Assembly: GCA_019750575.1 (NCBI GenBank)
Contig: JAIEOJ010000277.1
Coordinates: 1 to 57,335 of the forward strand
Reading direction: 5' to 3'
DNA length: 57,335 nt
DNA from: Rhodocyclaceae bacterium
GTDB taxonomy: Bacteria; Pseudomonadota; Gammaproteobacteria; Burkholderiales; Rhodocyclaceae
A model generated the notes under the pieces. It was not told the origin of the DNA. It did no database searches and was given only the letters and a program-made list of their open reading frames with translations. The translations under genes were made by a program, and so were the position numbers. Of the stretch, positions 26,004 through 30,181 are shown one piece after another; the stretch's first letter is position 1; each line of letters begins with the position of its first letter.

Positions 26004-26029
26004 GAAATATGCAACATTCTGCATATTTC
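26004..26029. promoter_or_regulatory. Inverted repeat upstream of porin/PBP/DGC operon
   Basis: GAAATATGCA-ACATTC-TGCATATTTC perfect 10-bp arms, 17 nt before ATG. Confidence 0.55.
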
Positions 26030-26046: not shown

Positions 26047-27324
26047 ATGGCGAAATTCAAGGGAGGCCTTAGATCAGCAGCAGTGGGCGTTTTCGCCTGC
26101 CTGCTCCTCAATGGCATGGCGGCACACGCCGACGAGGGTTTCACTTTCAGCGGATTTGGCTCGCTCGGTGGCGTGCATGAAAATGCCCCGAATGCCGGCT
26201 TCACCCGCTACCCCACCCAGCCGCAAGCCGAAAACAACAATACCTCCCTGCTGACCGACAGCCTGCTCGGGCTGCAGGCGAATTACGCGATCACGCCGCA
26301 ATGGGAGGCCGTCGCCCAGCTGGTCGTGCGCGACCAGAAGCACACCAGCGTCAATCGCTCGCTCGAATGGGCCTATCTCAAGTGGCGGCCCGACACCAAT
26401 GTCGACCTGCGCTTCGGCCGGGTGGGCGCCGATGCCTTCATGCTCTCGGACTACCGCCATGTCGGCTTCGCCCAGCTCTGGGCACGCCCACCGGGCGAGT
26501 TCTACGGCTGGATCCCGGTCTTCTCCATCAACGGCGGCGATGCCAGCTACCGTTTCCGCAGCGGCGATACCTACTGGCAGCTCAAGGGCCAGCTCGGCAC
26601 CAGCAAGAGCCAGCTGCCGACCGGCCCTGACACCACCTACGCCTTCGAGGCAGACCGCTTCCGCAACCTCAGCCTGCGGGCGGAACAGGGACCGTGGCAG
26701 TTCATGACTGCCATCACCATGCTACGCGTGGGTTCCGAAGCCGTGCCTGGCACGCTCAACACCAATCTGAACCAGATCGCGGGCTCGCCCTTCGCCCCGG
26801 CGGCGATCCGCAACGAGGCCCGCCAGCTGAACCAGGGCTTGTGGATAAAGGGCGCCGATGTGCGCTACCTCACCCTCGGCGGAGCCTACCAGGATGGCAC
26901 CTGGCAGATACAGGGCGAGATCGCGAAGATCACCAGCGACAGCAAGCTGACGCCTACCGGCTTGAGCGGCTACATTTCCGCCGGTCGCCGCTTCGGCAGC
27001 ATCACGCCCTATGCGGTCCTGTCGGCATTCCGCAGCGACCGCTCGGAAACGCTGGCCGGCAACAACTGGTCCGCCCTCGGCGCCAGCGCCGTCACCGTGC
27101 AGACCGCAGCCGTCGCCGCCTACAACAGCTACCGCATCGACCAGACCGGGCTGGCGCTGGGCGTGCGCTGGGACATCAACAGCCGCACGGCCCTCAAGCT
27201 GCAGTGGGATCGCAAGGACATCAACGCACGCGGCTACGGCCTGTGGCAGATGGACAATACCCGTTACGGTAGCAGCGACAGCACCGTGAACATCTTCAGC
27301 GCAGTACTCGACTTCACCTTCTGA
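26047..27324 (+). CDS. Outer-membrane porin-like beta-barrel protein
   Basis: Signal peptide, alternating beta-strand pattern, C-terminal VNIFSAVLDFTF. Confidence 0.8.
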   Translation: MAKFKGGLRSAAVGVFACLLLNGMAAHADEGFTFSGFGSLGGVHENAPNAGFTRYPTQPQAENNNTSLLTDSLLGLQANYAITPQWEAVAQLVVRDQKHTSVNRSLEWAYLKWRPDTNVDLRFGRVGADAFMLSDYRHVGFAQLWARPPGEFYGWIPVFSINGGDASYRFRSGDTYWQLKGQLGTSKSQLPTGPDTTYAFEADRFRNLSLRAEQGPWQFMTAITMLRVGSEAVPGTLNTNLNQIAGSPFAPAAIRNEARQLNQGLWIKGADVRYLTLGGAYQDGTWQIQGEIAKITSDSKLTPTGLSGYISAGRRFGSITPYAVLSAFRSDRSETLAGNNWSALGASAVTVQTAAVAAYNSYRIDQTGLALGVRWDINSRTALKLQWDRKDINARGYGLWQMDNTRYGSSDSTVNIFSAVLDFTF

Positions 27325-27326
27325 GT

Positions 27327-27800
27327 ATGCGCGCCCCTCACCGCCCCCCTCCGCACCGCCCTCCTCCGCACCGACTCCTGCGCGCCTGCCTGGCGCTGTG
27401 CTGCGCCCTGGCCTGGGGGGTGGCGCAGGCCGACATCTTCGTCATCGTGAATAACGCCAACCCGGTGCGCCAGCTCAGCAATCAGGAAGTTGCCGATCTC
27501 TATCTCGGCCGCGCCCGCAACTATCCGAACGGCGCGCCGGTGCAGATCCTCGACCAGGCGAACTCGCGCAGCGAGCGCGAACAGTTCTTCCGCCTCCTGC
27601 TCAACATGCCGCTGGCCCAGGTCAATGCCTACTGGGCCCGCCTCACCTTCACCGGGCGCCAGTCGCCGCCGGAAGTACGCAACGACGACCAGGCTGTCGT
27701 GGCCAGCGTCAGCCGCTCGGTCCAGGCCATCGGCTACGTCGGTAGCCGGCCGCAGCATCCCGACGTTCATGTCATCCTGCAGCTGCACGACTCGCCATGA
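27327..27800 (+). CDS. Small phosphate-binding (PstS)-like periplasmic protein
   Basis: IFVIVNNANPVRQLSNQEVADLYLGRARNYPNGAPVQILDQANSRSEREQFFRLLL. Confidence 0.75.
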   Translation: MRAPHRPPPHRPPPHRLLRACLALCCALAWGVAQADIFVIVNNANPVRQLSNQEVADLYLGRARNYPNGAPVQILDQANSRSEREQFFRLLLNMPLAQVNAYWARLTFTGRQSPPEVRNDDQAVVASVSRSVQAIGYVGSRPQHPDVHVILQLHDSP

Positions 27801-29401
27801 AGCCCGCGCCGCCACTCATCTCGCTGGAACGTAAGCTGATTGCGGCGCTTGGTTTTGCCGCCCTGCTGTTCAGCCTGATCGCCGGTGGCGCCGATTACCT
27901 GCATACCTATCGCAACGAGCTCGACCGCAGCCGCGCCAGCTTCGACAATCTCGCCGCCACCGTGCAGTCATCGGCCGCGATTGCCGCCTTCGTCGGCAAC
28001 GCCACCATCGCCGATGACATCGCCGAAGGACTGCTCAAGAATCAGGAAATCCTCGGCGTCCAGATCCAGGGCGGCAGGAACTTCTCCTTCCGGCAGGCCA
28101 AGATCGTGGATACCGAGGAATGGCCGGAGCACGCCACGCTCTCCTACCCGCTGTATTCGCCCACCCTGCTTGATGAAAACATCGGCCAGCTGAGCATCCT
28201 CACCGACGCCAGGCTGCTCGAGGCGCGCGCCCGCGCAGCGGCCTTCAACCAGCTCCTGTTCCTTATCGGGCAGACCCTGCTGCTGGCGGCCATACTCGCC
28301 TTCACCTACCGCCAGCTGGTCGGCCGCCCCTTGCTGCGCCTGACCCAGACGCTGGTTGCGATCGAACCGGGCAGCGACCAGCGCATTCCGATCGCCGACA
28401 ACGACCGCGACAATGAAATCGGCCATGTCGCCAGCAGCGTCAACCACTATCTGGAAATCAGCGAACGCGCGCTGATGATCGAGCGCGAGCTGCTGGCGCG
28501 GGTGCAGAAGCTCGAAAGCCATTACCGGCGCATCTTCGAATCGGCCAAGGTCGGCATCATGGTGCTGGAGATGGACGGCAGCCTGATCAACTGCAATACG
28601 GCCGTCAGCAACCGTGCCGAGCAGGCCGGGCCGCCCTCCGGCGAGGACAGCGACTACCTGGCACGCATCTTCAAGCAGCCGGCCAAGGCCTGGACGCTGA
28701 TCGAGCAGGCGCGCAGCAGCGGTCTGGTCGTCAACGGCGACCTCGAACTTCTCAACAACGAAGGCGAATCGCGCTGGGCGCATTGCCTGTTCTCCATCGG
28801 GCGCTTTCCCGAAGAGGACCAGCACTACATCGAGGCAGTGTTCTACGACGTGACATCGCGCCGTATGCGTGAGGAAAAGGCGCTGCGCTCGGCCGAGCGC
28901 GATGTGCTCACCGACCTCATCAATCGCCGCGGTGCGCTCGCCTACCTTGAACAGGCGCTGGTCGATGCACGCCTCGAAGGCAAGGGCGTGACCCTGTTCT
29001 TCTTCGATCTTGACGGCTTCAAGTCGATCAACGACACCTACGGCCACGCCGCCGGTGACATCGTGCTGGTCGAGGTTGCGCGTCGTCTGCGCGGCGTGCG
29101 CAAGCGCTCTTCCGACCTGCTCGCCCGCCTCGGCGGTGACGAGTTCGTACTCGCCGCCTACGGCATGCACAAGACCGATGATGGCGCCCATCAGCTTGCC
29201 CAGGCCCTGCTGACCACCATGCAGACACCGATCGCGCTGGACCAGGGCCAGACCGCCTGTATCGGCGTCAGCATCGGCATTGCCGGCTACCCCGAAAACG
29301 CCGACAACGTGGCCGCGCTGCTGGAGACCGCCGACCAGGCCATGTATAGTGCAAAGAAGCGCGGCAAGAACCGCTACCAGGTAGCGGCGTCGAAAATGTA
29401 A
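27797..29401 (+). CDS. Membrane diguanylate cyclase with CHASE8-like, HAMP, PAS and GGDEF domains
   Basis: Two TM helices flanking a periplasmic domain; RLGGDEF active site with RSSD I-site. Confidence 0.9.
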   Translation: MKPAPPLISLERKLIAALGFAALLFSLIAGGADYLHTYRNELDRSRASFDNLAATVQSSAAIAAFVGNATIADDIAEGLLKNQEILGVQIQGGRNFSFRQAKIVDTEEWPEHATLSYPLYSPTLLDENIGQLSILTDARLLEARARAAAFNQLLFLIGQTLLLAAILAFTYRQLVGRPLLRLTQTLVAIEPGSDQRIPIADNDRDNEIGHVASSVNHYLEISERALMIERELLARVQKLESHYRRIFESAKVGIMVLEMDGSLINCNTAVSNRAEQAGPPSGEDSDYLARIFKQPAKAWTLIEQARSSGLVVNGDLELLNNEGESRWAHCLFSIGRFPEEDQHYIEAVFYDVTSRRMREEKALRSAERDVLTDLINRRGALAYLEQALVDARLEGKGVTLFFFDLDGFKSINDTYGHAAGDIVLVEVARRLRGVRKRSSDLLARLGGDEFVLAAYGMHKTDDGAHQLAQALLTTMQTPIALDQGQTACIGVSIGIAGYPENADNVAALLETADQAMYSAKKRGKNRYQVAASKM

Positions 29402-29473: not shown

Positions 29474-30181
29474 ATGTCTGCCATCCCTCCCGTACCAGCG
29501 GCCAAATCCGGTTTGCATCCGGTGATCTGGATTGCCGCGATTGCGGTGATCCTCTTCAGCGTGGTCGGCATTGCCGCCATGACCGGGCTCCTGCCCGGCA
29601 AGAGCGCCGCGCCCGAGGCCCCGGCCAAAGAAGCCAGCGCCAGCCCCGAAGTCGCACCCGCGACGCCAGCCCCGGTGGCCGTGGCAACGCCGGCCCCGGC
29701 GCCAAGCGCACCGGCCAGCCAGCCGGTTGAAAAGAAGGTCGCCAAGCCGGTCGTCAAGCAGGCCAGCACCACCTCCAGCAAGCCGGCCAGCAGCAGCGAC
29801 GATCAGCGCGTCACCTACAGTTCCAAGCCGGCGCCGCCGCCGCCCTGCCCCGACTGCGCCGTGATCTCGAGTATTGAGCCGGTTGCCGTCGAAGGCGAAG
29901 GCAGCGGCCTCGGTGCGATTGCCGGCGGCGTGCTCGGGGCCGTCATCGGTAACCAGATCGGCGGCGGCTCCGGTCGTGATGTCGCGCGCATTGCCGGCAT
30001 CGCCGGTGGCGCCTACGCCGGCCATCAGATCGAGAAGTCGCAGCGCGCCGGTACCGCCTACGACATCGTGGTGCGCTTCGTCGAGGACGGCAGCACCCAG
30101 CGTTTCCGCGAAAACGCCGCGCCGGTGTGGCAGGTGGGTGACAAGGTGCGCGTTGAAAACGGCCGCCTGGTACCGCGCTGA
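29474..30181 (+). CDS. Glycine-zipper 2TM-domain protein
   Basis: IAGGVLGAVIGNQIGGGSGRDVARIAGIAGGAYAGHQIE. Confidence 0.85.
   Translation: MSAIPPVPAAKSGLHPVIWIAAIAVILFSVVGIAAMTGLLPGKSAAPEAPAKEASASPEVAPATPAPVAVATPAPAPSAPASQPVEKKVAKPVVKQASTTSSKPASSSDDQRVTYSSKPAPPPPCPDCAVISSIEPVAVEGEGSGLGAIAGGVLGAVIGNQIGGGSGRDVARIAGIAGGAYAGHQIEKSQRAGTAYDIVVRFVEDGSTQRFRENAAPVWQVGDKVRVENGRLVPR

Follow-up and report, generated by a model that had tools for sequence, protein, structure and literature searches.

A probable VpvABC-type c-di-GMP signalling operon in a Rhodocyclaceae bacterium and the varied output genes that adjoin VpvA-VpvB pairs

Introduction

VpvABC of Vibrio cholerae consists of the porin VpvA, the periplasmic binding protein VpvB and the membrane diguanylate cyclase VpvC (PMC12456836). 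VpvA and VpvB were reported to contribute to the c-di-GMP output of V. cholerae, and VpsT/RpoS activation of vpvABC, together with its effects on c-di-GMP and rugosity, has been described (PMC12456836). Deletion of the whole of vpvABC in V. cholerae E7946 left c-di-GMP unchanged (PMC8754643). Operons of vpvAB without vpvC also exist and have been proposed to form a conserved sensing unit (PMC12456836). In V. cholerae, VpvA, VpvB and VpvC are encoded by VC2456, VC2455 and VC2454; vpvC (VC2454) adjoins varS (VC2453), and VpvC has a tryptophan at position 240 (W240). In the V. cholerae NspS-MbaA system, the complete periplasmic binding protein NspS feeds an inner-membrane c-di-GMP enzyme and is not known to have a porin partner.

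Here we describe a three-gene operon in a stretch of 57,335 nucleotides from a Rhodocyclaceae bacterium (GCA_019750575.1, contig JAIEOJ010000277.1, positions 1 to 57,335), referred to below as the window, and compare it with these and related systems.

Results

A three-gene operon homologous to vpvABC

Three open reading frames lie on the + strand of the window, with the lengths and spacing given by an earlier sequence-only reading of this DNA. The first (26047-27324) encodes a VpvA-like outer-membrane β-barrel of 425 aa with a signal peptide and a C-terminal F, assigned from the open reading frame, Porin_4 and its match to the reference locus L169 described below. The second (27327-27800) encodes a VpvB-like periplasmic protein of 157 aa with a predicted single-lobe PstS fold, the lobe spanning approximately residues 36-155. 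The third (27797-29401) encodes a VpvC-like diguanylate cyclase of 534 aa, arranged as a transmembrane (TM) segment, a CHASE8-like periplasmic domain, a second TM segment, HAMP, PAS and GGDEF. The barrel and small-protein genes are separated by a 2-bp gap, and the small-protein and cyclase genes overlap by 4 bp.

The operon is preceded by a gene with the domain matches of an mnmC-like bifunctional tRNA-modification gene, with 61 bp from its end to the barrel gene. A near-perfect AT-rich palindrome with arms of 10-11 bp (GAAATATGCA-acattc-TGCATATTTC; 26004-26029, unstranded) is located 17 bp before the vpvA-like start and, judged by its sequence, could be an operator or a 5'-leader hairpin. No second exact copy of it was found across the genome, and a shared operator was hence rejected. 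On the other side, 72 bp after the cyclase gene, a co-directional gene (29474-30181) encodes a 235-aa glycine-zipper 2TM (Rick_17kDa_Anti) protein.

The reference locus L169 was found by searching Vibrio-genus genomes with a profile of the small protein, and was read as vpvABC on synteny. In L169, the genes for the barrel, the small protein and the cyclase are followed by a convergent gene for a 928-aa VarS/BarA-like kinase, and W237 of the cyclase is close to the position of VpvC W240. We took L169 to be vpvABC because of its Vibrio-genus origin, this convergent neighbour and this tryptophan. The window barrel is 32% identical to L169 VpvA over its full length of 425 aa (E 7e-66), and the window small protein is 36% identical to L169 VpvB (E 4e-30). 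The window cyclase aligns with L169 VpvC in two blocks, with 37% identity over GGDEF and 28% over the TM-sensor-TM-HAMP region (E 2e-28 and 5e-27), which are parted only by the window PAS domain. As in VpvABC, the VpvA-like protein is encoded first, the VpvB-like protein second and a two-TM/HAMP/GGDEF cyclase third. At the level of sequence, it is thus shown that each window protein is homologous to its counterpart among VpvA, VpvB and VpvC and that the gene order is conserved.

Given this gene-by-gene homology, novelty of the triad is not supported; the model offered in the sequence-only reading, in which a porin and a binding protein feed the cyclase, was already published for VpvABC (PMC12456836). 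Both the homology to VpvABC and the conserved neighbourhood described below support the underlying idea of three genes forming a c-di-GMP module that spans the envelope. Collectively, these results suggest that the operon is probably a VpvABC-type signalling module, in which the VpvA barrel is joined by VpvB as an adaptor to the CHASE8-like domain of VpvC with c-di-GMP as the output, and in which VpvA-VpvB is portable.

The match of the window barrel to Porin_4 is weak (21 bits, under the cut-off). Among 59 homologous neighbours of the barrel type, 25 matched Porin_4 (E up to 0.01), the best at 3e-15. A sequence search of solved structures with the barrel alignment gave no match.

A cyclase sensor with a probable distant link to YfiN

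The periplasmic sensor of the window cyclase, placed by hhalign and by its predicted fold, spans approximately residues 36-151 (27902-28249, + strand) and is CHASE8-like/sCache-like. It is followed on the same strand by HAMP (residues 175-218; 28319-28450), which was just sub-threshold (E 2e-4) and was matched in 13 of 17 relatives, and by PAS (approximately residues 242-355; 28520-28861), also just sub-threshold and missing from the compact L169 VpvC. Most homologous cyclases resemble that of the window in bearing a PAS domain, with approximately 235-245 residues between HAMP and GGDEF, compared to 119 in L169. The GGDEF domain (residues 367-526; 28895-29374, + strand) scored 141 bits. Its RSSD I-site (residues 437-440), which the sequence-only reading had called intact, is confirmed in the sequence, and the RSSD, LLARL and GGDEF (residues 446-450) motifs retain the I-site (RxxD) and active-site residues.

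The CHASE8 label given earlier to the sensor has support as distant kinship but not as a Pfam family match. The Pfam CHASE8 threshold was reached neither by the window cyclase nor by any other protein of its genome, and by one of 17 close relatives. When the family alignment was compared by profile-profile alignment (hhalign) with one of E. coli YfiN together with CHASE8 proteins of related genomes, the probability was 98.4% over the TM-sensor-TM-HAMP region; the periplasmic part alone (approximately 115 aa) gave 84.7% against the YfiN/CHASE8 set (E 7e-6, for a single comparison). A long helix opens the predicted sensor fold, a short helix and four strands follow, and another long helix closes it. 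The matches from a fold search with it were limited to generic folds of extracytoplasmic sensors, WalK being one, and a LapD-type output domain. The sequence comparisons support a distant relationship to CHASE8/YfiN, and we term the domain CHASE8-like. Two genus mates (G001 and G002) are without the small protein and have one true CHASE8 protein each, while the VpvABC operon is present in the window genome (G000), in which nothing matched CHASE8.

In a YfiBNR-like arrangement, the small periplasmic protein would inhibit the cyclase through the CHASE8-like domain, and the outer-membrane protein would sequester the inhibitor under stress. The probable distant relationship of the sensor to that of YfiN fits such repression, as do the corresponding cell compartments, the part of the YfiBNR likeness proposed earlier that still stands. 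As the nearest relative, however, YfiBNR does not hold: the small protein is PstS-like and not YfiR-like, no member of Pfam YfiR (DUF4154) was found across the window genome, and the small-protein family had no match to Pfam YfiR. Moreover, YfiB is an OmpA-like outer-membrane lipoprotein whereas the partner in the window is a porin-type barrel, and VpvA and VpvB reportedly contribute to c-di-GMP with no repression. We therefore consider YfiBNR-like repression unlikely, although it is the best placed of the alternatives to a VpvABC-type module.

VpvAB pairs adjoin four classes of signalling output

Homologues of the small protein were gathered irrespective of their neighbours for a survey of conservation. 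They were present in 58 of 150 related genomes, in 63 of 399 genomes sampled across the phylum and, at E up to 1e-30, in 9 of 148 Vibrio-genus genomes. The survey set comprised 184 VpvB homologues from 175 stretches, including 14 contigs recovered with window-protein patterns and thereby biased to cyclases. Genes were called with a simple home-made caller, and small profiles built in-house supplied the domain labels (E up to 1e-5). For the output domains, these labels agreed with Pfam scans of a subset.

A co-directional VpvA-like gene was found within 250 bp of 174 of the 184 VpvB homologues, and a signalling gene within 300 bp of 129 (70%), compared to 16 of 501 background genes more than 3 kb away (3.2%); these counts include related genomes and same-genome copies and are not independent. 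The signalling genes occur on either side of VpvAB and fall into four output classes: GGDEF (35), chemoreceptor (MCP; 33), GGDEF+EAL (32) and histidine kinase (HK; 29). The phylum sample alone gave 21 MCP, 20 HK, 12 GGDEF and 12 GGDEF+EAL neighbours, with none in 31 cases. Neighbourhood co-occurrence, the check suggested with the sequence-only reading, thus reveals a triad that is widely conserved and not confined to one strain.

The distances between VpvA proteins and between VpvB proteins correlate (r 0.69). On a VpvA+VpvB tree estimated with FastTree, output class required at least 18 changes, whereas shuffling the labels gave 69 on average and never fewer than 60. Locally supported swaps were observed between GGDEF and GGDEF+EAL (support 100) and between HK and GGDEF (support 99). 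Together, these results suggest that the partners are co-inherited and occasionally exchanged. The periplasmic regions of the cyclase, HK and some GGDEF-EAL outputs are mutually related. In contrast, the MCP outputs have a longer periplasmic segment of approximately 155 aa, and their alignment to the cyclase group is confined to the HAMP region. Since the MCP periplasmic domain differs from the CHASE8-like one, a single shared docking mode is doubtful.

In 47 of the 184 cases, the barrel was present and no signalling gene adjoined the pair; VpvAB may therefore act with distant partners or otherwise. No other gene family recurred beside these pairs, whose neighbours were heterogeneous. These pairs, about a quarter of the total, and their mixed neighbours speak for an unrelated role of the barrel and the small protein, such as solute uptake or outer-membrane maintenance, with the cyclase as a co-transcribed passenger. 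However, the excess of adjoining signalling genes over background, their position on both sides of VpvAB, their four classes and the way output class tracks VpvAB phylogeny all argue against a passenger, which we regard as improbable. The balance of evidence leans towards VpvA and the one-lobe VpvB being a general outer-membrane-to-periplasm sensory front end. It would have been coupled on many occasions to each of the four major classes of transmembrane output, namely cyclases, cyclase/phosphodiesterases, histidine kinases and chemoreceptors, including receptors with unrelated periplasmic domains. In the openly accessible literature, we found no mention of MCP, HK or GGDEF-EAL versions of VpvAB, and a literature search found no paper on a PstS-like protein paired with a diguanylate cyclase.

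Some loci had further features. In four Vibrio-genus loci (L170, L171, L172 and L173) the VpvAB pair is beside an MCP gene, and L170 has an adjoining second barrel gene. Three loci (L056, L232 and L236) have tandem VpvB-like genes approximately 1.5-2 kb apart with no adjoining signalling gene; in L056, each tandem gene is preceded by its own barrel gene.

The VpvB-like protein is predicted to correspond to one PstS lobe

The NCBIfam PstS model TIGR02136 matched the small protein with one half only (model positions 116-218 of 295), scoring 32 bits where the cut-off is 207 bits. An AlphaFold model of the small protein, built from 15 homologues, had a mean pLDDT of 91.6. Its best 18 Foldseek hits among solved structures were all phosphate-binding PstS proteins (top E 1.6e-5, probability 1.00), with alignments of approximately 122 columns to targets of 240-260 residues. 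PstS has a two-lobe fold, of which the first lobe is missing from the small protein. From the partial TIGR02136 match and the length of the modelled PstS alignment, the predicted structure is therefore that of a single type-II binding-protein lobe and not of a Venus flytrap.

The core motif of the family is AQVNAYWAR-LFTGR--PP. W103 is invariant in 172 homologues, and F87, F108, G110 and P115 are each conserved in more than 90%. Residue counts in the alignment of these 172 homologues showed no conservation at the positions of the lobe-2 phosphate contacts of PstS (Arg and Ser-Gly-Thr). With only one lobe as well, the sequences make canonical PstS-style phosphate binding, and hence a Venus-flytrap phosphate sensor, unlikely. 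A sensor in which the small protein binds phosphate or another anion like PstS and signals its occupancy, as the sequence-only reading had envisaged, has the PstS-family fold and sequence in its favour but is very improbable given the missing lobe, the unconserved Arg and Ser-Gly-Thr positions, and barrels that are Porin_4-like, with a phosphate-selective porin model matched by just 1 of 59. Phosphate bound as by a canonical PstS is probably not the ligand of the system.

No natural fusion of VpvB to an output domain was seen among the 184 homologues, none of which had more than 60 residues beyond the lobe. The window protein has an odd N-terminus (27327-27374), MRAPHRPPPHRPPPHR, encoded by a short C-rich DNA repeat before a normal signal-peptide core; its homologues begin approximately 14 residues further on.

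Discussion

We propose that the VpvA barrel would either admit a small solute to the periplasm or report the state of the outer membrane. In this reading, VpvB would be a solitary PstS-type lobe, the second of the two, and may serve as an adaptor that hands this cue on to VpvC at its CHASE8-like periplasmic domain. From there, the signal would pass through HAMP and PAS to GGDEF and change c-di-GMP, most likely upward. As a portable front end, VpvA-VpvB would also have been wired by evolution to cyclase/phosphodiesterases, histidine kinases and chemoreceptors. Counting against this reading are the unchanged c-di-GMP after vpvABC deletion in V. cholerae E7946 (PMC8754643), the 47 barrel-bearing pairs that adjoin no signalling gene, and the differing periplasmic domain of the MCP outputs.

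The VpvABC triad and its model are already known, and the interest of the present findings is in the swappable outputs. The window homologue and its family point to the VpvAB pair as a unit conserved in its own right, apart from the cyclase. Many VpvAB relatives adjoin kinase or chemoreceptor genes, and the outputs of these proteins lend themselves more readily to assay. Such pairs should help in practice to find the ligand and to learn how a barrel in the outer membrane can feed a sensor in the inner membrane.

The window operon shares with VpvABC its gene order, all three protein families, the tight spacing and, in the cyclase, the periplasmic sensor and the HAMP domain. Its cyclase differs in having a PAS domain and in keeping the RxxD I-site intact, both of which are missing from the compact L169 VpvC, and the identity of the window proteins to those of L169 is just 28-37%. 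Compared to the described vpvAB operons without vpvC (PMC12456836), the pairs surveyed here have the same barrel and one-lobe protein, and many of them adjoin MCP, HK or GGDEF-EAL genes. YfiBNR likewise connects the outer membrane and periplasm to an inner-membrane cyclase, with a CHASE8 sensor that is probably related at a distance. However, VpvA and VpvB belong to other families than YfiB and YfiR, the gene order in E. coli is yfiR-dgcN-yfiB, and YfiR is a repressor whereas VpvB reportedly contributes to output. YfiBNR is therefore an analogy in layout only, because YfiR is missing from the genome, VpvB does not resemble it and the effect on output seems to run the other way. With PstS, the small protein has the fold of one lobe in common; it is half the size, has no first lobe and no SGT motif, and adjoins signalling rather than ABC transporter genes. 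By description, NspS-MbaA and VpvABC both lead from a binding protein to an inner-membrane c-di-GMP enzyme, with a complete binding protein in NspS and one lobe in VpvB.
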